64,000 nucleotides of DNA from Lentzea tibetensis (lineage in GTDB: Bacteria > Actinomycetota > Actinomycetes > Mycobacteriales > Pseudonocardiaceae), in assembly GCF_007845675.1 (NCBI RefSeq), contig NZ_VOBR01000010.1, positions 117,530 through 181,529 on the forward strand, given 5' to 3'. Positions 1 through 10,538 of the stretch are shown piece after piece. The notes under the pieces are model-generated. The model was not told the DNA's origin. It saw nothing but the letters and a program-made list of their open reading frames with translations, and searched no databases. How positions within the stretch are numbered: the stretch's first letter is position 1; the number at the start of each line of letters is the position of its first letter. Both the position numbers and the translations under genes were made by a program.

Positions 1-1
1 C

Positions 2-406
2 AACAACCTCGGCGGCTGCTACACCGACCTCAGACGCCACAACGACGCCGTCAGCCCCACCGAAGAAGCCACCACCCACTACCGCGCACTCGCCGCCACC
101 AACCCCAGCTACCTACCCGACCTCGCCAGCGCACTCAACAACCTCGGCACTCGGTACGGCAACATCGGACGCCACAACGACGCCGTCAGCCCAACTGAAG
201 AAGCAGTCACCCTGCGCCGTGTTCAATCCGCCGACAACCCCGCCTACCTACCCGACCTCGCCATGGCCCTCAACAACCTCGGCAACCGCTACAGCAACAT
301 CGGACGCCACAACGACGCCGTCAGCCCCACCGAAGAAGCAGTCACCCACTACCGCGCACTCGCCGCCACCAACCCCAGCTACCTGCCCAACCTGGCCAGC
401 GCACTC
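2..406 (+). repeat. Three tandem 135-bp coding repeats (TPR units)
   Basis: Units start at 2, 137 and 272, each beginning aacaacctcggc; a fourth diverged unit begins at 407. Bases 73-114 are identical to 343-384 but differ in the middle unit, whereas bases 159-192 are identical to 294-327. This mosaic of shared blocks suggests unequal crossing-over or gene conversion between units. More units probably lie upstream of the window. Confidence 0.9.
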
Positions 407-1474
407 AACAACCTGACCCAACTTCTCGTACTTTTCGATGGCGGCGGTCGTGTCGAGGAGATCTGGCGGGACGCGCTCGACTCAGTTGGAAGCGATGCAG
501 CGGCAATGCTGTTGTTGTACCGAACTGACGCCTCGCCGATCGGATCACCAGACAGTGCCAAGTGGCTGCGTGCAATCGAAACGACCGGGCAACGTGACCT
601 TCTCGGTTTTGCGCATGAGCTTGGACGGAAGCACTGGCGCGCCAACCCTGACGCGTGGGCCAAGGCATGGACTGAAGCGGCACACGAGTCGACGCTGCCT
701 GCCTGGCTGACGGTCGATCCGAACAAACTCGAGTTGGTGGAGGCGTGGCTGGCCACGCCGACGTATGAAGCAGAGCGTGACCACCTCGCGACGCACCCAG
801 AACTCCTTGACGAGGTCTTCGATGTAGCCGTGCAGGAGGTACTTCTTGCATGCGACGAAGCTGAGGCCCGTCGCTACCTGGAACTACGAGCAACAGCACA
901 ATCCGTCGGTGCGGTTGCCGCCTACCAACCACTAGTGCTCGGAAGTCTTGTCGCGACGTTCACCAACGCTGATCCTGTGCGACAGCAACAACTCTTGGAG
1001 GAGCGCCGCGACGAACTGCAAGATGACCTGGTCATGGAGTACATGCAACAACACGTGGAGGGCGACGAGTCGGACGGTAGGTTGGAGGTCGCGATGTCAC
1101 TACTCGATCTCGCCCGCACCGGCCAGAACGAGCCATTGTCCGCGACGTTCGACGCGCTCAACGACCCTGAACTGTTCGCGGCTCTCCTGGAGTCAACCGC
1201 TTTGAAATCCAATACCCCGGCGCTAGAAGACATCGCGTTGGTGGCGTTCTACACGGCCAGCACAGAGCCTGAAGCGGCGAACGCCCTCTTCTACGGCGCC
1301 GTCGCCGGCGCCATCACAACCAACGACGAAGCTGACGAACGCTTGCGTGCGGCAATCGAATACAACCCCGACCAGCGAAACAAGTGGATCAGCCAGCTGG
1401 CCAGGATCGGCAGAGTGCACCCAGAGGTGCTGGCGCTGATCGACGTGTTGACGGAGACCGACGATGGCGAGTGA
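2..1474 (+). CDS. TPR protein with conserved C-terminal module (5' end outside window)
   Basis: The reading frame is open from the window edge, so the N-terminus is missing; an internal ATG at 263 should not be taken as the start. Residues encoded by 2-430 form TPR-like 45-residue repeats with the pattern ALNNLG...GRHNDAVSPTEEAV. The remainder (about 430-1474) is a helical C-terminal module with the motifs HWRANPDAWAKAW, LPAWLTVD, HPELLDEVFDVAVQE and NALFYGAVAGAI. It aligns along its whole length with the C-terminus of the caspase-like giant protein at 5126-10003. The missing N-terminus may therefore hold an effector or NTPase domain, which is inference. Codons such as CCA, GAA and TTG in the C-terminal half are less GC-biased than in neighbours. 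The TGA overlaps the ATG of the downstream lipase relic, suggesting an original operon. Confidence 0.85.
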   Translation, partial: NNLGGCYTDLRRHNDAVSPTEEATTHYRALAATNPSYLPDLASALNNLGTRYGNIGRHNDAVSPTEEAVTLRRVQSADNPAYLPDLAMALNNLGNRYSNIGRHNDAVSPTEEAVTHYRALAATNPSYLPNLASALNNLTQLLVLFDGGGRVEEIWRDALDSVGSDAAAMLLLYRTDASPIGSPDSAKWLRAIETTGQRDLLGFAHELGRKHWRANPDAWAKAWTEAAHESTLPAWLTVDPNKLELVEAWLATPTYEAERDHLATHPELLDEVFDVAVQEVLLACDEAEARRYLELRATAQSVGAVAAYQPLVLGSLVATFTNADPVRQQQLLEERRDELQDDLVMEYMQQHVEGDESDGRLEVAMSLLDLARTGQNEPLSATFDALNDPELFAALLESTALKSNTPALEDIALVAFYTASTEPEAANALFYGAVAGAITTNDEADERLRAAIEYNPDQRNKWISQLARIGRVHPEVLALIDVLTETDDGE

Positions 1475-2531
1475 CGACCTGGTCGTCGTGTTGCCCGGCA
1501 TCATGGGAAGCGCGCTCGAACAGCACGGCAGACCGGTGTGGGACGTGTCGGCAAAGCAATCATCAGCGGCATCAGGCACCTCGGCCGCAACATCGGCGCG
1601 TTGAAGCTGCCGGAAGGCATCGGCGACAACCATCCCGAGGATGGGGTGGTCCCGACCAAACTATTGTCGGACCTGCACCGTGCCGCACGGCTGGCGACTG
1701 TCCAATCGGTACCACGGGGAGCCACTGGTCAAGATCCTGGAGCAACAACAGGACAAGAAGCTGTACCACTCGATGGGCGGCCTGGTGGCGCGATGGTACG
1801 TCGAGAAGTGCGGTGGCGCAGAGAGAACGCGCAAGCTGATCACGTTCGGCACGCCGTACCGCGGAGCCGCGACGGCCGTGGCGCGGTTGGTCAACGGGGT
1901 GCGCAGAAAGATCGGGCCGCTGACAGTCGCCCTCACCGAGTTCGCGCGCAGCATGCCGTCGCTGCACCAGGTTGACGCACACGATCGTTGGCGCGCGGCA
2001 GCCCACCTGCACGACGGTGCGCATCGAAGGTGAGACAACGGTGCCGCTGGACACGATCGGCGGGGACAACGACTCCGGCGACGGCACAGTTCCGCTCACC
2101 GGCGGAGTGGGCCACGGCTAACGATGGACAGCAGCCGGGTCGTCGACCAGCACGGCAGTCTGCAGGCCAACCCGTTCGCGCTGGACCAGCTCGAAGAGAT
2201 CATCACCGCTGAGCCGGTGCGCAGGCGTGCGCAGGGCACCGTGCCGGTGGGCGTCGCGGTGCCCGAGCTCATCGTTGCGGGCGAACCACTTCCGGTCACC
2301 GCGCAGATGGACCCGGAGGCGCGGAAGGCACTGCTGATCACCGTTGTGCCAGAACAGGGCAGGCCGATCGCCCGCGAACCGCGGATCGTCGACGTGCTGG
2401 CACGCGCGACGTTCGAGGATCTGCCGCCCGGCGGCTACGAACTTCGCGCCACTGGCCGACGTCCTGAGTCACCGCTCAAACACTCGTGTGGGATCCGAGC
2501 TGAGCTCAGGCCGAGGACGTCCAGCCGCTGA
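1464..2531 (+). pseudogene. LCAT-family lipase relic, frameshifted and internally deleted
   Basis: Pieces of one lecithin:cholesterol acyltransferase-like alpha/beta hydrolase lie in order in different frames. The start MASDDLVVVLPGIMGSALE is at 1464. GKAIISGIRHLGRNIGALKL follows in another frame from about 1555. WRLSNRYHGEPLVKIL and the nucleophile motif YHSMGGLVARWYVEKCGG lie in a third frame at about 1690-1830. A GDNDSGDGTVPL piece (catalytic Asp region) at about 2068-2121 ends in TAA. RVVDQHGSLQAN (catalytic His region) and a C-terminal beta-domain follow from 2124. At least three frame changes separate the Ser, Asp and His regions, and segments before SMGG and before the Asp region are missing. 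It overlaps the end of the TPR gene, so it was probably its translationally coupled partner. Sequencing error could explain single frameshifts but not the deletions. Confidence 0.85.
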
Positions 2532-2871
2532 CCAGCTCGGGCAACAACGTCTGCCACGACACGCCGGCCTGCTCGTGCAGCACGAGCAGCAGCCGCCCGG
2601 ACCGCTCAGGCCCGGCGTCGAGCCACACGGCTTGAAGCAGTCCCTCTTCGGACTCGAGCCGGTCCCCTGCCTCGGCGAGCCGCGCCGGCGTGGCCGCGAC
2701 CGGGTCGCCGACCTCGACGCGGTGGAAACATCGTGCCGCGTCGCCGCGCAGTTCGGGGTGTCGGCAGAGCACCGACTCCACGGCGGTCACGAGCCGCCCC
2801 TCGCCCAACCCGGCACGCACCTGGACCGTCATGGTTCTCAACGCAGCCTCACCGTTCACCTGGTTAGGCAA
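2506..2871 (-). pseudogene. NRPS condensation-domain relic
   Basis: A 121-codon frame starts with TTG at 2871. Its C-terminal part reads like the middle of a nonribosomal peptide synthetase condensation domain: a LQAVWLDAGPERSGRLLLVL strand followed by GVSWQTLLPELVSGW. The N-terminal RLVTAVESVLCRHPELR resembles the start of the same fold. The catalytic HHxxxDG motif is reduced to HEQA-G, with the second His and the Asp lost. No adenylation or carrier domain lies nearby. It is best read as a decayed fragment, although it keeps an open frame. The low length and missing catalytic residues argue against enzymatic function. Confidence 0.6.
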
Positions 2872-2895
2872 CCCTAACCCACTACGCTCTCGGTT

Positions 2896-3201
2896 GTGTC
2901 TTACGGCTACCTAGGTTCGATGAAGACGAAGCCCGGTCACCGCGACGACGTGGTGTCGATCCTGCTCAGCGGCGTGGACGGCCTCCGCGAACACGGGTGT
3001 GATCTGTACGTCGTTTCGGTGTCGGACACCGAACCGGACACCATCTGGGTGTTCGAGTCGTGGCGGTCCAAGGACGCGCACGCGGCTTCGCTCCAGCTGC
3101 CGGAGACCAAAGAGGCCATCGCGAAAGCGATGCCGATGCTCACCGGTGAGTTCAGCGGCCAGGAGACGACGATCGTCGGGGGCCTGGGCGCCCAGCACTA
3201 A
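2896..3201 (+). CDS. Antibiotic biosynthesis monooxygenase (ABM) domain protein
   Basis: A 101-residue protein of the dimeric alpha/beta-barrel ABM superfamily (quinol monooxygenase YgiN-like). Typical features are the N-terminal YLGSMKTKPGHRDDVVSILL strand-helix, the central VSVSDTEPDTIWVFESW strand pair, and the helix SKDAHAASLQLPETKEAI. Such proteins act as cofactor-less oxygenases or as small dimeric accessory proteins; the substrate cannot be read from sequence. GTG at 2896 is the only start giving the full fold. Its TAA overlaps the stop of the convergent GGDEF-EAL gene by four bases. No redox or polyketide genes adjoin it. Confidence 0.8.
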   Translation: MSYGYLGSMKTKPGHRDDVVSILLSGVDGLREHGCDLYVVSVSDTEPDTIWVFESWRSKDAHAASLQLPETKEAIAKAMPMLTGEFSGQETTIVGGLGAQH

Positions 3202-5021
3202 GTCAACGGCACCGGCAGCGGCCCGCGAGCGAGGAGATCCCGCAGCTGTTCGCCCGGCACCGGCCGGGCGAACAGCCATCCCTGGTAGGAGTCCACGCCG
3301 AGGCCACGCAGGACGTGGAACTGGGCGGGCGTCTCCACGCCGACGGCGACGCAACGGAACTCCATGGCCCTCGCCACGCTCACGGCCGCCAGCGCAACGG
3401 CGGACCCCGCCCCGTCGTGACCCACCTGCGCGACCAACGTGCGGTCGACCTTGATGATCTGCACCGGCAGGTCGCGCAACCTCGCCAGCGAGGAGTACCC
3501 GGTGCCGAACCCGTCGAGAGCGAAGCGGACGCCCCGATCCACCAGGTGCCGCATCGACGAGTCGGCGCGCGACAGGCTCGCGAGCACCACCGTCTCAGTC
3601 AGCTCCAGCACCACGCGGTTCCAGGCGATGCCCGCCTCGTCGACGGCGCTCTCGACGACGTCGACGAACTCGGGGTCGTCCGGTGTCAGCCCGGACAGGT
3701 TCACCGTCACGGCGACGTCCCCCGGCCAGTTCACGGCCTCGCGCAACGCCGCGCCCAGCACCCAGATGTCCAGGTCCCGCAGCTTGCCGGAGTACTCGGC
3801 CACCCTCAGGATCTGGTCCGGCAGCAGCAGCCCGCGGTAGGGGTGCGGCCAGCGCACGAGCGCCTCGACCATGTCCACCCGGCCGTCCTGGTGAACGATC
3901 GGCTGGAAGTCCAGCCGCAGCAAGCCGTGCAGCAGGCAGTCGCGCAGCTGGCCATCCAGGTCCACGGCATTTTCGATCATCACCATCTGGTTCCGGCTCG
4001 CGACGGACACCAGTCCGGGACCGCGCAGCTTGGCGTGGGCCATCGCGGTGCTCGCGAACCTGACCAGGTCCTCACCGGTCGCCGGCCGCCCTCCCGGCTC
4101 GGCGGCGCCGAGCGACGCCGTGACCGCGACCTGCCTGCCGCGCACCGGAACGTCCGCCCGGAACAGGACGGAGACGTTCACCGCGAGTGCGTCGATCCCG
4201 CCGTGCACCCCGGTGTCCGTGCAGACGACCATGAACTCGTCGCCGGAGTACCGCGCCGCGGAGCAGTTGGCGGGCAACCGTTCCTCGAGGATCTTCGCGA
4301 GTGCGACGAGCACCTCGTCACCGGCGCGGTGGCCGATCGCGTCGTTGACGAGCTTGAACCTGTCCAGGTCGGCGACCAGCACCGCCGGTTGGTCGCCCGC
4401 GGCGAGCAGGTGGTCCAGCAGCTGCACGGCCGACCGTTTGGTCAGCAGCCCGGTCAGCTTGTCCCGCGTGAGCCCCGGCAGCTGGGACTTGTCGAGCGCG
4501 GCGGACAGGTCTCGCAACCGCTCGCCCTGCTCGTCGAGGTACCGGTCGACCATGTCCAGCCCGATGTCGACCTGGTCGGCCGCCAAGCTCGGCAACACCG
4601 GTGCGGGTGGCGAGCTGCCCAGCCGCGACTCCAGCGCCAGCACCCTGGCGCGCGCGATCTCCACCAGCCGCAACGCCTGCTCGCGTTCCGACTCCGCGCG
4701 CACCAGGCGTTGCTCGGTCCTGGCGTGCGAGTCGCGGGTGCGGTGCAGCTCCTCGCGGTGGCCGTCCCGTTCCCAGGTCAGCCTGGCGATCGTGGCCTGC
4801 AACTGCATGAGCACGGTCTGCAGCACCCACACGACCTGCGTGATGTCGCGTTCGGCGCGCATGCTCTCGACGAGCTGCGCCCGCACCCGGTTGAGCTCCT
4901 CGTGAACGGCGAGCAGCTTCTCGCCGCCCGCGTGCACGTGCACGACACCGCTGATCAGGTGCGCCTGCACGCTCGGGCCGTGCACGGTCCCGGAGACCTC
5001 GTTGCGCGGGTTCTCGTCCAT
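3198..5021 (-). CDS. GGDEF-EAL cyclic-di-GMP protein with coiled-coil N-terminus
   Basis: A soluble 607-residue protein. Residues about 35-135 are a long Glu/Arg-rich coiled coil. A GGDEF domain follows (KLTGLLTKRSAVQLLDHLL, then RYSGDEFMVV near residue 257, so the signature is SGDEF rather than GGDEF). An EAL domain then carries EAL near residue 386, VTVNLSG, LELTETVVL, IKVDRTLV and GVET. The loop-6 metal motif reads DGFGTGYSS instead of DDFGTGYSS, so one metal-binding Asp is lost and phosphodiesterase activity may be weak or absent. No PAS or membrane segment is seen. ATG 5021 is preferred over TTG 5030. It is transcribed divergently from the caspase-like gene across about 100 bp, so shared regulation is possible. 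Confidence 0.9.
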   Translation of the reverse strand: MDENPRNEVSGTVHGPSVQAHLISGVVHVHAGGEKLLAVHEELNRVRAQLVESMRAERDITQVVWVLQTVLMQLQATIARLTWERDGHREELHRTRDSHARTEQRLVRAESEREQALRLVEIARARVLALESRLGSSPPAPVLPSLAADQVDIGLDMVDRYLDEQGERLRDLSAALDKSQLPGLTRDKLTGLLTKRSAVQLLDHLLAAGDQPAVLVADLDRFKLVNDAIGHRAGDEVLVALAKILEERLPANCSAARYSGDEFMVVCTDTGVHGGIDALAVNVSVLFRADVPVRGRQVAVTASLGAAEPGGRPATGEDLVRFASTAMAHAKLRGPGLVSVASRNQMVMIENAVDLDGQLRDCLLHGLLRLDFQPIVHQDGRVDMVEALVRWPHPYRGLLLPDQILRVAEYSGKLRDLDIWVLGAALREAVNWPGDVAVTVNLSGLTPDDPEFVDVVESAVDEAGIAWNRVVLELTETVVLASLSRADSSMRHLVDRGVRFALDGFGTGYSSLARLRDLPVQIIKVDRTLVAQVGHDGAGSAVALAAVSVARAMEFRCVAVGVETPAQFHVLRGLGVDSYQGWLFARPVPGEQLRDLLARGPLPVPLT

Positions 5022-5125
5022 CGGGCCCAAACGTACTCCGGCGAGCCTCGACGGTCCGCCGGTTCCGGCTGTTCAAGTCGACGCGCGGACGCGCCGATGT
5101 ACAGGGATCCAACGAGGGGACGCAC

Positions 5126-8100
5126 ATGGGGAAGCGCGGCGTGTTCATCGGCGTCGGCATCGACACCTACGACGTCGGACTGCGCCGGCTCGACCACGCC
5201 GTCGCCGACGTGAGTGCCGTCGCGGAGTGCCTTTCCACGTCGTACGAAGGTGAACCGCTGCTCAACGGAACCACCGACGACGTCACCCGGCACCTGAAGT
5301 CGTTCGAGGGCAAGGCCGACGGCCGTGCGCTGGTGTTGTTGTGGAGCGGCCACGGGAGCAACGACGCGGGTCTGCGCCTGGCGACGCGGAACGACGTCGA
5401 CGACCTGGCCGCGGCCGAGGTCATCCGCCGGTGCGTGCGGTCGCGCGCGAACCAGCTGCTGTTCATCATCGACACCTGCCAGGCCGAAGCCGTGTTGCAC
5501 GCCGCGCACCAGGCGGCCGAGTGGATCACCAACCTGGAGGCGCCGCACGAGCACGTGTGGTTCGGCTTCCTGGTGTCCTGCTCGACCGCCGACTACGGGG
5601 CCCGTGACGGCGCGTTCGGCGCGCTGCTGGTCAAGCTGCTGAAGCACGGACCCGACTCCCCGGACCAGAAGCGCCGCTGGTCGAGGCACAACAGGTTCAT
5701 CCTCGGTGAGGACCTCGGCCAAGCGCTGCTCGAGGAGTGGCGGGGCGAGCAGCGACCGGACTTCCTGCGGCGTGGCCGCGGCTGGTACATGCTGCCGAAT
5801 CCGCTGTGGACCGAAGACGCCCCCGAGGAGGTCGTGGAACATCTCCTCCTGGCCGCACGAGGTGGTGCGTCCGAGGACCGCCGCTCCTGGTTCACCGGCC
5901 GTGCGGCGGAGGTCGACCAGGTCGTCTCGTGGGTGGTCGCCGCGGAACCCGGCGTGCGGGTGGTGACGGGCTCAGCGGGTACGGGCAAGTCCGCCATCGT
6001 CGGCCGGGTCGTGTCGATGTCGAACGCGGAGGAACGCGCCGGGCTGCGGTGGACCCACGCCGATCCCGGCCGGGGTTCGGTCACCGCGCACGTCCACGCC
6101 CGCGGCCTGACCGCCGACCTCGTGGCCGACGTGCTGGACGGCCAGCTGGTGCGCGCCGGACTGCTGCCACCGGAACCCGCGGGCCGCCGGAACGCCGCTG
6201 AGCTGGTCGGCGCGGTCCAGCGCGCGGTCACCGAGAGCTCGACGGTTCCGGTGATCGTGATCGACGGCCTGGACGAGGCCAGGGGTGACTCGCTCGCGAT
6301 CGCCTCCGACGTGATCTCGCGCCTCGCACCGTTCGCGTCGGTCGTGGTCTCCACCCGCCCGTTGACCGTCATCGGTGGCGACGGCCCGCGGGACGTCCTG
6401 TCCGCGACCGAAGTGCTCGACCTCGACCTGCCGCGCCACCAGGAGTCCGGCCGAGCCGCGATCAACGACTACGTCCGCCACCGGCTGTCCGATGTGGACG
6501 TCACGATGGACGCCGAGGAGGTCGCGCGACACCTCGAGTCGTCTTCGGTGACGAAGCGCCCGTTCCTGTTGGCGCGGGTGATCACCGATCAGCTCCGCGC
6601 CACCCCGGTGGACACCTCGCGACCGGACTGGCGGCAGCGCGTCGCCGGTTCGATCGAAGAAGCCTTCGACCACGACCTGGGCCGCGCCGAGCCGCCGCCT
6701 CCGGACTCGACGTCCGGGCTGACTCCCCAGCAGCTGGCGCGAACGATGCTGACCGCACTGACCTGGGGCATGGGCGCCGGATTCCCCGAGGCGGAGTGGC
6801 TCGCGGTCGCCTCGGCCCTGGCGGACACGCCGCTCGACCGCGACCACGTGAGCTGGGCGGTGGACCAGCTCGGCCGGTACGTCGTGCAGGACGGTGCGGG
6901 AGGAGTCGCGGTCTACCGGCTCGCCCACCAGAGCCTGTCGGACCACCTGCGCCCAGCCCGCGACTCCACCGCCGATCCCGGCGCGCTCCGCGTGCTCGGT
7001 GCGTTGCTCGCACGGTACGAACAGCTGCTCGCTGATGGGCAGAAGTCCTGGGAACCCGCCTACCTGCGCGACTACGCGTGGCTGCACGCGGCGAAAGCGG
7101 GCAACGACGGGCTGGTCGCGCTGCGCGAGCTGGCCACCAGGACCACCGGCCTGCGCGCGGACGTCGCCGACGCGTCGATGTACCTCAGCAACGACGCCCG
7201 GACCCGCGGCCGCCACACCGAGGCGATCGCGCCCATCGAGGACGCGGTTCTCCTGTACACGGCCCTCGCCGAGGACGACCCCGTGTACACGTCCGATCTC
7301 ATCCGCGCGCAGATGCAGCTCGGCATCTGCTACGACGAGGTGGGCCGGACCTCCGACGCCATCGCACCGACGGAGCAGGCCTCCGCGCTCGTGCGCGAGC
7401 TGGCCGCGCACCACCCCGTGTTCGTGCCCGGCTTCGCGGGCACGCTCATCAACCTCGGCAACTGGTACAGCGGGGTCGGCCGCCAGGCGGACGCGATCGC
7501 CGCGACCGAGGAAGCGGTCTCGCTCGTGCGCGCCGCGATGACCACCAGCCCGGACCTCTGGCCGACCCTCGCCACCGCGCTCAGCAACCTCGGCGTCATG
7601 TACGGCGACGTGGGCAGGTACGCCGACGCGCTCGCGCCCGCCGAGGAAGCCGTCGCGCTCTACCGGTCGACGGGGAAACCCGTCCGAGCGGCGGACTTCG
7701 CCGGCCTGCTCACCAATCTCAGCAACCTCTACAACCATCTCGGCCGCCACGCCGAAGCGATCGAGTGCATCGAGAACTCGGTCGTCCTCGCCCGCTTGGC
7801 CGCGGCGGGAAATCCGGAGGAGTTGCCCAGGCTCGTCAGGGCTCTCATCAACCTCGGCTCCTCGTACGACAAGGTCGGCCGCTGGGCCGAGGCCCTCGCT
7901 CCAGCGGAGGAAGCCGTGGCCAACGCGCGCGTTCTCGCGGAGCACAACCCCGGCTGCGCGGGCGACCTCGCCAAGGCGCTCATCCACCTGGGCATGCGGT
8001 ACCGCGCGGTGGGGCGCGACTCCGACGCCATCGCACCCGCCGAAGAGGCGGTCGCCCTGCGGCGTGCGCTGGTGGTCCGGCATCCAGCGCATCGGACCGA

Positions 8101-10003
8101 CCTCGCCAGTGCGTTGAACGGCCTTTGCAGCTCCTACTGCAGCGTCGGTCGCCACGCCGAGGCGCTCGCCCCGATCGAAGAAGCCATCACGCTCCTGCGT
8201 GAGGCGGCAGCGACCAACCCCGCCCACATCGCCGACCTCGGCGGAGCCCTGCACAACCTCGTGAACGTGCGGCACAGACTCGGGCGCGGTTCCGAAACCC
8301 TCGAGCTGGCCGCGGAAGCGGTCGACCTCTTCCGCGCAGCGGTGGCCGTCAATCCCATGCACGTACCCGCACTCGCCTCGGCACTCAGCAACCTGGGAGT
8401 CAACTGCAAGAACAACGCGCACACCACCGCGGCGATCGCCGCACTGGAGGAAGCCGTCGCGCTGTACCGGGACGCGGCGACCGGCAACCCCGCGCACCGG
8501 CCCGGTCTCGCCGGGATGCTCATCAACCTCGCCCGGTGCCACGGAGAGGTCGAGCGCCACACCGAAGCGATCGCCTGCGCCGAGGAAGCCGTGACGTTGC
8601 TGCGCGAGGCGGCCGCCACCAGCTCCGCCCATCTGCCCGACCTCGCTCTGGCACTCCACAGCGTCGGCGTCTGGAAGAGCAGGACGAACCACCACGCCGA
8701 AGCGATCGCCACCACCCGCGAGGCCGTCGAGCTGCGTCGTCCCTTGGCGACGCACAATCCCGCACACGTCCCGGACCTGGCCAAGGCGCTCAAGAACATC
8801 GGCTCGTGGCACGTCGAGCTCGCGCAGCTCGCCGAGGCCGTCGAACCACTCGAGGAGTCCATCGAGCTGCTCACGACGGCAGCGGCCGGCAACCCGACGC
8901 TCCTGCCCGAACTCGCCTCCGCACTCACCGATCTGACCCGTCTGCTGGAGGACTCCGACGACGAACGGGTCGAGGCGGCCTGGCAGCACGCGCTCGACGC
9001 CGTGCCCACCGGCGACGCGACCAGGTTGCTGGTGTCCCGCTCGGACGCGGCAGAACGGGGCGATCCGCGGACAGCCGCCTGGTTGCAGGTGGCCGAGCGG
9101 GATGGCGATCGCCGAGTCGTCGCGGCCGCGCGCGATCGGGCGCGCGGGCACTGGCGTGCCAGTTCTGACGCGTGGGCGACCGCGTGGGCGGTCACGACGA
9201 ACACCGACACGCTGCCCAGTTGGCTGACCGTCGACGAGGACGAGTTGGCGCTGGCGAAGGAATGGATCAGCGCGGGCTCGGTCGAGGGCCAGAGAGAGGT
9301 TCTGCGGGCGCACCCGGAGTTGCTCGACGCGTCCTTCGACCTGGCGGTGCGCGAAGCTCTGGCCGGGGAGAGCCGGGAGGTCGCGAAGGCCTACTCGGCT
9401 CATCGGGACGAAGCGCGCTCAGCCGGGGTCGACGCCTCGTACCGGAAGCTGGTCAGGGTGAGCCTCGCGGCGGACTTCCTGTGGGCGGATCCGGCCACCC
9501 GGCGCCTGCTGCTCACCGAACGCCGCGCCGAGCTGTTCGACGAGGAGTTCGTCGAACCGCTGAAGCGGATGGCCACGGAAGACGACCTGGACCAGAACGT
9601 CGGCAACCGGGCGAGGATCGCACTGGCGTTGATCGACTTCGCCCAGGCGGGCCACGACGAGCAGCTCACCGCGACATTGGACGCGCTGGAGCAGCGCGAC
9701 CGGCTGGCCGCGCTGCTGGACGAGACCGCCCGCCGCCCCGACGCACCGGCCCTGGCGCACATCGCGATGGTCGCGTTCCTGACGTCCGAGGAGAACGTCG
9801 AGGCGATGAACGCGCTGTTCTACTTCGAGGTCGCGAGCGCGATCGACGGGGACGACGACTGCGGAGGCCACCTTCGCGACGCCTGTGAACTCGCACCCGA
9901 CGAGCGGACCGCGTGGATCACTCGGCTGGCCGAGCTCGGCGCGGTCCACCCGAGGGTGCTGCCGTTGATCAAGATGCTGGCGGTGCCAGACCCCGCCCCG
10001 TGA
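5126..10003 (+). CDS. Caspase-like / P-loop STAND NTPase / TPR protein (NLR-like)
   Basis: A 1625-residue protein. Residues 1-200 form a caspase-like (peptidase C14/CHAT) domain with the catalytic dyad H76 in LLWSGHGSND and C118 in FIIDTCQAEA. A P-loop NTPase follows, with Walker A GSAGTGKS at 282-289, Walker B VIVIDGLDEA with D380, D383 and E384, and a sensor strand SVVVSTRPL near 410. A helical winged-helix-like stretch leads into about 14 TPR units of roughly 45 residues (about 675-1270). The C-terminal module of about 350 residues is shared with the protein at 2-1474. This is the layout of STAND sensor-effectors: TPRs sense or autoinhibit, the NTPase oligomerises, and the protease executes. 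The trigger and protease substrate are unknown. A GAGGGGA ribosome site precedes ATG 5126. No membrane segment is seen. Confidence 0.92.
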   Translation: MGKRGVFIGVGIDTYDVGLRRLDHAVADVSAVAECLSTSYEGEPLLNGTTDDVTRHLKSFEGKADGRALVLLWSGHGSNDAGLRLATRNDVDDLAAAEVIRRCVRSRANQLLFIIDTCQAEAVLHAAHQAAEWITNLEAPHEHVWFGFLVSCSTADYGARDGAFGALLVKLLKHGPDSPDQKRRWSRHNRFILGEDLGQALLEEWRGEQRPDFLRRGRGWYMLPNPLWTEDAPEEVVEHLLLAARGGASEDRRSWFTGRAAEVDQVVSWVVAAEPGVRVVTGSAGTGKSAIVGRVVSMSNAEERAGLRWTHADPGRGSVTAHVHARGLTADLVADVLDGQLVRAGLLPPEPAGRRNAAELVGAVQRAVTESSTVPVIVIDGLDEARGDSLAIASDVISRLAPFASVVVSTRPLTVIGGDGPRDVLSATEVLDLDLPRHQESGRAAINDYVRHRLSDVDVTMDAEEVARHLESSSVTKRPFLLARVITDQLRATPVDTSRPDWRQRVAGSIEEAFDHDLGRAEPPPPDSTSGLTPQQLARTMLTALTWGMGAGFPEAEWLAVASALADTPLDRDHVSWAVDQLGRYVVQDGAGGVAVYRLAHQSLSDHLRPARDSTADPGALRVLGALLARYEQLLADGQKSWEPAYLRDYAWLHAAKAGNDGLVALRELATRTTGLRADVADASMYLSNDARTRGRHTEAIAPIEDAVLLYTALAEDDPVYTSDLIRAQMQLGICYDEVGRTSDAIAPTEQASALVRELAAHHPVFVPGFAGTLINLGNWYSGVGRQADAIAATEEAVSLVRAAMTTSPDLWPTLATALSNLGVMYGDVGRYADALAPAEEAVALYRSTGKPVRAADFAGLLTNLSNLYNHLGRHAEAIECIENSVVLARLAAAGNPEELPRLVRALINLGSSYDKVGRWAEALAPAEEAVANARVLAEHNPGCAGDLAKALIHLGMRYRAVGRDSDAIAPAEEAVALRRALVVRHPAHRTDLASALNGLCSSYCSVGRHAEALAPIEEAITLLREAAATNPAHIADLGGALHNLVNVRHRLGRGSETLELAAEAVDLFRAAVAVNPMHVPALASALSNLGVNCKNNAHTTAAIAALEEAVALYRDAATGNPAHRPGLAGMLINLARCHGEVERHTEAIACAEEAVTLLREAAATSSAHLPDLALALHSVGVWKSRTNHHAEAIATTREAVELRRPLATHNPAHVPDLAKALKNIGSWHVELAQLAEAVEPLEESIELLTTAAAGNPTLLPELASALTDLTRLLEDSDDERVEAAWQHALDAVPTGDATRLLVSRSDAAERGDPRTAAWLQVAERDGDRRVVAAARDRARGHWRASSDAWATAWAVTTNTDTLPSWLTVDEDELALAKEWISAGSVEGQREVLRAHPELLDASFDLAVREALAGESREVAKAYSAHRDEARSAGVDASYRKLVRVSLAADFLWADPATRRLLLTERRAELFDEEFVEPLKRMATEDDLDQNVGNRARIALALIDFAQAGHDEQLTATLDALEQRDRLAALLDETARRPDAPALAHIAMVAFLTSEENVEAMNALFYFEVASAIDGDDDCGGHLRDACELAPDERTAWITRLAELGAVHPRVLPLIKMLAVPDPAP

Positions 10004-10538
10004 GCAGGATCAACCTGTCCAACTGGGACGCGTCGCCGGGCACCGGGAGTGCGTCGGCGAACGCACCGCCGCGCTCCGGCCCGGAAGGCGGGAACTCCGC
10101 CACGAACTCCAGCGCACCGGCCACCGACTCGGCGGACGGCTCGTAGTCCTGGCCCAGCGCACGGGAGATGTCCCAGCCGTGCACGACGAGCTCGTTCAGC
10201 GCCACGCAACCGGCCACGTCGCCCGGCAGGTCGACGCCACCGGCCTGCGTCATGCCCTCCCACGCGTCGGGTGCGCGCCACGCCTCCGCCAGCGCGTCCA
10301 GGCGCTCGGCGAACGTCTCGCGCCAGCCGTCCTCGAGGCGCGACGCGTCGCCGGAAGGCGCGCTCTGCAACGGTTTCTTGATCGCGGCACCGTGGAACGC
10401 CAGCGCCAGGCCGCCCACGTGCTCGACGAGGTCGCCCAGCACGTAGTCGGGACAAGGCGTTGCCAGCGAGAGCTGGTCGTCCTTGATGTCAGCCAACAAG
10501 GCGGCCATGCACCGTGCCGCCGGCCCCAGATCGTGCAT
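9969..10538 (-). CDS. TIGR03086-type DinB/mycothiol-isomerase-like protein
   Basis: A 189-residue four-helix protein of the maleylpyruvate-isomerase N-terminal/DinB superfamily. Metal-ligand positions are visible: an EHVGGLALAFHGAAI helix and the late NELVVHGWDISRALG motif (His-x-x-Asp). Family members use mycothiol or bind a divalent metal, but most have no proven reaction. ATG 10538 overlaps the stop of the upstream YbjN-like gene by one base (TGATG), so the two are translationally coupled. The 3' end overlaps the end of the caspase-like gene by 35 bp on the opposite strand. Confidence 0.8.
   Translation of the reverse strand: MHDLGPAARCMAALLADIKDDQLSLATPCPDYVLGDLVEHVGGLALAFHGAAIKKPLQSAPSGDASRLEDGWRETFAERLDALAEAWRAPDAWEGMTQAGGVDLPGDVAGCVALNELVVHGWDISRALGQDYEPSAESVAGALEFVAEFPPSGPERGGAFADALPVPGDASQLDRLILLTGRGLAPPAS

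Follow-up and report, generated by a model that had tools for sequence, protein, structure and literature searches.

In Lentzea tibetensis, a giant protein that joins a caspase-like domain, a STAND NTPase, a TPR arm and a further C-terminal module in one chain belongs to a family whose genes stand, at most loci, beside a gene for an LCAT-like lipase. We infer from sequence a role in immunity or death, and consider it somewhat probable that the protein is the sensor/initiator of a two-component cassette of this kind, in which the lipase would be switched on by the caspase. Table 1 gives the coordinates of the focal gene, its domains and its neighbours; the window is the whole 64,000-nucleotide stretch of contig C2 that was analysed. 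A sequence-only reading had described a caspase-like/STAND/TPR giant with an intact catalytic dyad, and this architecture is confirmed, the caspase fold by a structure model and the P-loop domain by profiles.

Table 1. Features of the focal gene and its surroundings (window coordinates unless a locus record is named)
Feature	Position	Strand	Remarks
MoxR-type AAA ATPase and DUF2201 metallopeptidase/vWA-like gene	L011:6709-9386		directly upstream of the tandem paralog; Pfam
3' end of tandem full-length paralog	1..1474	+	last TPRs and C-terminal module
Decayed LCAT-like lipase remnant	1473..2477	+	partner of upstream paralog; incomplete, its pieces spread over more than one frame
Approximate insertion carrying the focal gene	2841..10149		absent at the same spot in two congeners aligned at nucleotide level
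ABM gene	2896-3201	+	inside insertion
GGDEF-EAL gene	3198-5030	-	inside insertion, between the two tandem sensor genes
Focal gene, caspase-STAND-TPR-C-terminal-module protein	5126..10003	+	1625 aa; Lentzea tibetensis contig C2
Caspase-like (para/metacaspase-type) domain	5126..5860	+	residues 1-245
Catalytic H76; C118	5351-5353; 5477-5479	+	caspase domain
STAND NTPase and following region	5861..7195	+	residues 246-690
Walker A; Walker B	5969-5992; 6251-6280	+	STAND region
Conserved His601	6926-6928	+	STAND region; LAHQSLSDHL
13 TPR-like units of 45 residues	7196..8950	+	residues 691-1275; sensor arm
Family-specific all-helical C-terminal module	8969..10000	+	residues 1282-1625

The predicted structure of the caspase region has the fold of the caspase superfamily (peptidase clan CD, para/metacaspase-like). 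The two residues that had been named as catalytic, H76 and C118, are invariant, together with D116, in all 28 rows of an alignment (A4) that holds the three copies of the own genome and 25 of 38 homologous loci (see below), and position 28 is acidic throughout (D in 26 rows, E in two). The dyad is intact at 35 of the 38 loci, the remaining three lying outside the aligned stretch. D28 and D116 align with acidic residues of the animal paracaspase MALT1 and of plant metacaspase-4, and are candidates for the acidic S1 pocket of para/metacaspases. Identity to these two proteins is about 17%, and the focal domain differs from them in its fusion to STAND and TPR parts. Going by the model, the domain is a para/metacaspase-like member of the caspase superfamily and a predicted protease.

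The Walker motifs that had been claimed are borne out by a match to Pfam AAA_16 above the cut-off, with a P-loop containing Walker A and a DGLDE-type Walker B; the Walker A lysine is kept at 37 of the 38 loci, with T in its place in L041. The context of His601 is retained in most aligned loci, and this histidine after the NTPase may represent the winged-helix region motif of STAND NTPases. The repeats are present as well, in 13 units rather than the approximately 14 counted earlier. The C-terminal stretch, previously taken for a new component, is indeed a family-specific module, detected in one of 295 other genomes of the class. Examined alone, it is all-helical and has no match in Pfam or NCBIfam, and comparison with the PDB brought up TPR-type arrays, with middling Z; it seems to prolong the sensor by further helices rather than to add a component of another kind. 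A reading of the module as a new enzyme was rejected on these results, which point neither to a known fold nor to a new one.

The N-terminal alignment, used to scan a collection with one genome per species, retrieved 38 loci, mostly from Lentzea, the others from Streptomyces, Intrasporangium, Blastococcus, MAGs of Coriobacteriales, Lamprocystis and Bryobacterales, and further sources. With the lipase of one of the other copies in the own genome (C34, see below) as sole tblastn query, a relative was found at 33 of the 38, mostly overlapping or abutting the sensor gene. A check with profiles, built partly from these same 38 loci, placed the caspase domain at 36 loci and the lipase at 33 of those 36. 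The caspase loci with no lipase match are L047 as well as L014 and L046, both of which run into a contig end on one side and show no lipase on the other, and neither of the two loci that lack the caspase domain (L041 and L050) has the lipase. The lipase lies 3' of the sensor in the Lentzea core clade, in Streptomyces (L013, L015 and L043) and in L039, and in Blastococcus it is also 3', after a second, partial sensor copy. It lies 5' in L032, L036, L040, L044 and L045, is divergent from the sensor in L048 and L049, and stands 3-5 kb upstream in L025 and L028. That the linkage is kept despite the rearranged order argues for a functional pair, with far fewer than 33 independent events, since a single Lentzea clade accounts for about 20 of the 38 loci. 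At L044 and L045 two caspase-bearing genes flank a single lipase, and L035 likewise has one lipase for a sensor and a partial second copy; this recurrence makes it plausible that sensors share a lipase. At L047, where no lipase was found, a pair of caspase-bearing genes lies in tandem. The origin of L039 is uncertain, its record title naming a Rhodococcus MAG versus a tree lineage of Chroococcidiopsidaceae (Cyanobacteriota).

The own genome (9.36 Mb, 105 contigs) contains three copies, namely the focal gene, its upstream tandem paralog on C2 and a copy on contig C34. The C34 sensor is followed, with a 4-base overlap, by an LCAT-family alpha/beta-hydrolase gene (Pfam LCAT PF02450, E 5.2e-12, above the cut-off), whose C-terminal part looks Ig-like by eye. 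A Ser-Asp-His triad was assigned by motif, with Ser145 and Asp300 in 15 of 15 aligned rows and His327 in at least 90% of them. A basic residue between the hydrolase part and the C-terminal part (R or K in nine of ten core lipase rows) was considered as a protease cleavage site and rejected, because 18 lipase columns reach 8/10 and this one is therefore not outstanding; neither a gating insertion nor a cleavage site could be established for the lipase. The own genome also has TPR-only relatives (on C55 and C22), which served as a weak negative control: their contigs give no lipase match.

A tree of the caspase-STAND regions, flagged for long branches by the programme, has the C34 copy splitting off first within the Lentzea clade (100/100). 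The two C2 copies are sisters (100/99) and fall together with Intrasporangium (90/89). Of 24 further genomes of the genus, 22 have a strong caspase-domain match (E < 1e-90), against none of 36 that represent other genera in the family and order. At 19 loci of the Lentzea clade, ctaD comes next after the gene and its lipase, as on C34. Between the focal and the upstream C2 copy, NG86 dN/dS values, which are rough owing to saturation and GC differences, are 0.25/0.64 for the caspase, 0.26/1.06 for STAND, 0.50/0.79 for the TPRs and 0.53/1.40 for the C-terminal module. Thus, the C2 copies do not stem from a recent duplication, and the lower dN in caspase and STAND than in the TPRs and the C-terminal module points to a conserved signalling part and a faster sensor.

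The upstream paralog occupies C2:114084-119003, starting 3446 bases before the window, and is 54% identical to the focal protein over its length. Comparison with two congeners at the nucleotide level indicates, besides the insertion that carries the focal gene, a second one at about L011:9977-16102. The vWA-like gene and a small conserved gene, which flank the C2 pair, are 14.7 kb apart in the own genome; of the 20 congeners with both genes, 18 have an interval of 2.15-3.26 kb and the other two have 7.0 and 25.0 kb. Six congener stretches examined (L110-L115) contain no match to the caspase or the lipase at the corresponding spot, and no tblastn match to the GGDEF-EAL gene. To judge from these comparisons, the focal gene entered this Lentzea lineage by insertion, as an accessory sensor. 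The MoxR and vWA genes on the upstream side, the latter (DUF2201/vWA-like) found in 20 of 24 congeners, two of these partial, were considered as ternary partners and rejected, since a search at E 1e-6 in flanks of up to 10 kb finds neither of them at any of the 38 homologous loci, and congeners have the pair at the same place without the inserted genes. Mobile or phage carriage was likewise rejected: no homologs appeared in a scan of viral contigs, or in phage and plasmid collections searched by tblastn (N-terminal 690 residues). PADLOC-DB 2.0 returned only PDC-S53 for the focal protein (E 0.1, over 36 residues), nothing for two lipases, and weak matches of the relatives L043 and C34 to its "caspase" model PDLC02987 (E 4.3e-6 and 0.003).

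The near genus-wide presence and the synteny with ctaD are unusual for an anti-phage system and fit a housekeeping or developmental role as well. One may consider that the cassette is a core module of filamentous actinobacteria, serving developmental or stress-related programmed death or envelope quality control, and that the C2 copies are paralogous spares. The strong matches in nearly all congeners, the vertical position in the tree and the ctaD synteny speak for this explanation, which we nevertheless think unlikely. Cassettes recur with mixed gene order in Streptomyces, Blastococcus and the Coriobacteriales, Lamprocystis and Bryobacterales MAGs, this recurrence is rare (as for the C-terminal module, with its single other genome in the class), the C2 pair sits in insertions absent from congeners and groups with Intrasporangium, and divergence is fastest in the sensor parts. 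Mixed-order rare recurrence, insertions and fast sensor divergence are traits of accessory conflict genes. Inherited as it is across the genus, the C34 cassette could serve development or stress responses just as it could immunity, and the C2 pair, being inserted, suits an accessory part in conflict.

Contig C2 has no intact lipase, and the only lipase on the focal stretch is the decayed remnant, in several pieces. The focal copy may use the lipase of C34, act on other substrates or be disarmed. The last case, in which it would be an orphan acting as a decoy or dominant-negative regulator, or a gene heading for decay, appears improbable to us: the ORF is full-length (1625 codons) with its catalytic residues retained and even GC3, dN is well below dS in caspase and STAND, and arrangements of two sensors with one lipase elsewhere (see above) make lipase sharing possible. 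Most likely, the focal copy acts through the intact lipase of the genus-core C34 copy.

Looking from the side of the lipase, we searched 296 genomes of the class, the own one included, scoring the best few candidates per genome. Eleven matches outside the own genome, in eight genomes, had E 2.1e-11 or better, a limit set after seeing the match list (the next matches listed span shorter hydrolase stretches), and all 11 loci were examined. L116 runs into a contig end downstream. All of the other ten have a protease gene beside the lipase, which is caspase-like in seven (L101, L105, L106 and L107 by profile, L108 by NCBIfam, L102 and L103 by motif only), transglutaminase-like in two (L104:7950-14943 by Pfam; L117:6007-9581 by motif only, with a partial lipase at the contig end) and trypsin-like in one. 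In the latter, L109:2757-9506, an EAD1-trypsin-like protease gene (Pfam Trypsin_2 with EAD1) is followed by an ATPase-like gene and by a single open frame encoding a STAND-type ATPase and then the lipase. Pfam or phmmer detects a STAND-type NTPase at eight of the ten (L102-L109, with L103 and L106 below the curated cut-off), at L101 a P-loop was seen by eye only, and at L117 no NTPase was recognised. WD40 forms with a caspase stand beside the lipase at L101, L106, L107 and L108.

With the protease class swapped in this way, the lipase would seem to be the output that stays constant, and the protease an activator that can be exchanged. The protein had been called a sensor-executioner, of which the sensor half stands and the executioner half probably does not: the reading had missed that the conserved partner is a separate lipase gene, and this makes the caspase more likely an activator than the sole killer. 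We doubt that the caspase is itself the executioner through many cell proteins, with the lipase as an accessory (e.g. an acyl-modifier or a controlled restraining substrate), for although the dyad is intact wherever it can be read and the LCAT family includes acyltransferases, the protease beside the lipase may be a caspase, a transglutaminase or a trypsin.

If the caspase does act as activator of the lipase, the TPR superhelix and the helical C-terminal module would bind a trigger, upon which the STAND NTPase would exchange nucleotide and then oligomerise. The N-terminal paracaspase-like domains, activated by proximity, would cleave and thereby switch on the LCAT-like alpha/beta-hydrolase that is encoded next door in the family, and the activated lipase would attack membrane lipids, so that the cell is killed or arrested. 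Each functional step of this caspase-to-lipase circuit we infer from domains, residues, predicted fold and gene linkage. Alpha/beta-hydrolases among such effectors are read as membrane-lipid hydrolases in the available part of PMC8195603.

The closest genomic precedent, as far as the accessible sections of the source go, is the caspase-bearing VMAPs, next to which an alpha/beta-hydrolase gene is said to be always present (Kaur et al. 2020, PMC7159879); the same sections describe VMAP systems in which the position of the caspase is taken by a trypsin-like peptidase or, in rare cases, a transglutaminase-like one. MoxR-vWA VMAP systems, so described, share with our family a caspase-superfamily domain and an alpha/beta-hydrolase in a neighbouring gene. 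Unlike in them, the caspase here is fused to a STAND region with intact Walker motifs, TPRs and a distinct C-terminal module, and no conserved MoxR-vWA pair accompanies the family. None of the VMAP models in Pfam is among the matches of the focal protein at E up to 1. The protease-like neighbour at L117 has a weak VMAP-M2 match (E 5e-4, below the cut-off), and hence the VMAP-linked hydrolases and the present ones may be the same family. Prokaryotic metacaspase-NACHT-WD40 proteins, described in Asplund-Samuelsson et al. 2012 (PMC3501461, in the portion available), also carry caspase, STAND/NACHT and repeats in one chain, whereas the focal protein has TPRs and a C-terminal module instead of WD40; that portion contains no mention of a lipase link. 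The closest experimental precedent, by analogy, is proteases that activate partner nucleases, including Canu: in the accessible text of PMC12799240, Canu caspase-nuclease pairs and trypsin-nuclease pairs in Hachiman/AVAST were shown experimentally to work by protease activation of a pro-nuclease. Canu and our family are alike in pairing a protease with an adjacent hydrolytic enzyme, and differ in that the Canu partner is a metallo-beta-lactamase-type nuclease and ours a lipase, with a STAND-TPR sensor in the same chain as the caspase. Among the literature matches listed (titles and abstract beginnings), no account of the STAND-TPR form with a lipase appeared.

More tentatively, the cassettes could be parts of a bacterial caspase-to-lipase death pathway, in which STAND sensors with exchangeable proteases (caspase, transglutaminase-like or trypsin-like) and exchangeable arms (TPR or WD40) converge on one conserved LCAT-like lipase, and lipase-less sensors such as the focal one plug into a shared executioner; this seems to us possible, if short of probable. 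If true, it would resemble sensor NLRs feeding a common helper, and would place a lipid-hydrolysing counterpart beside the gasdermins and nucleases that caspases activate. It would provide a compact bacterial inflammasome-like circuit with a lipase output, a paracaspase whose specificity is predicted to be basic, and a natural experiment with more sensors than executioners. It would also suggest a role for the alpha/beta-hydrolase noted in 2020 in caspase conflict systems, as the protein that is switched on by the protease.

Two further observations concern the sister copies. An SPFH/Band 7 gene (L012:10639-11418) lies directly upstream of the C34 sensor, with which it may share an operon, and is present at 18 of the 19 Lentzea-clade loci that keep ctaD. 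The TPR array of the upstream C2 paralog (L011:12221-13944) is a partly homogenised 135-base repeat of 12.7 copies with 80% matches and an assembly gap, versus no tandem repeat at the DNA level in the focal array, and this repeat with its gap suggests recombinational change of sensor length.
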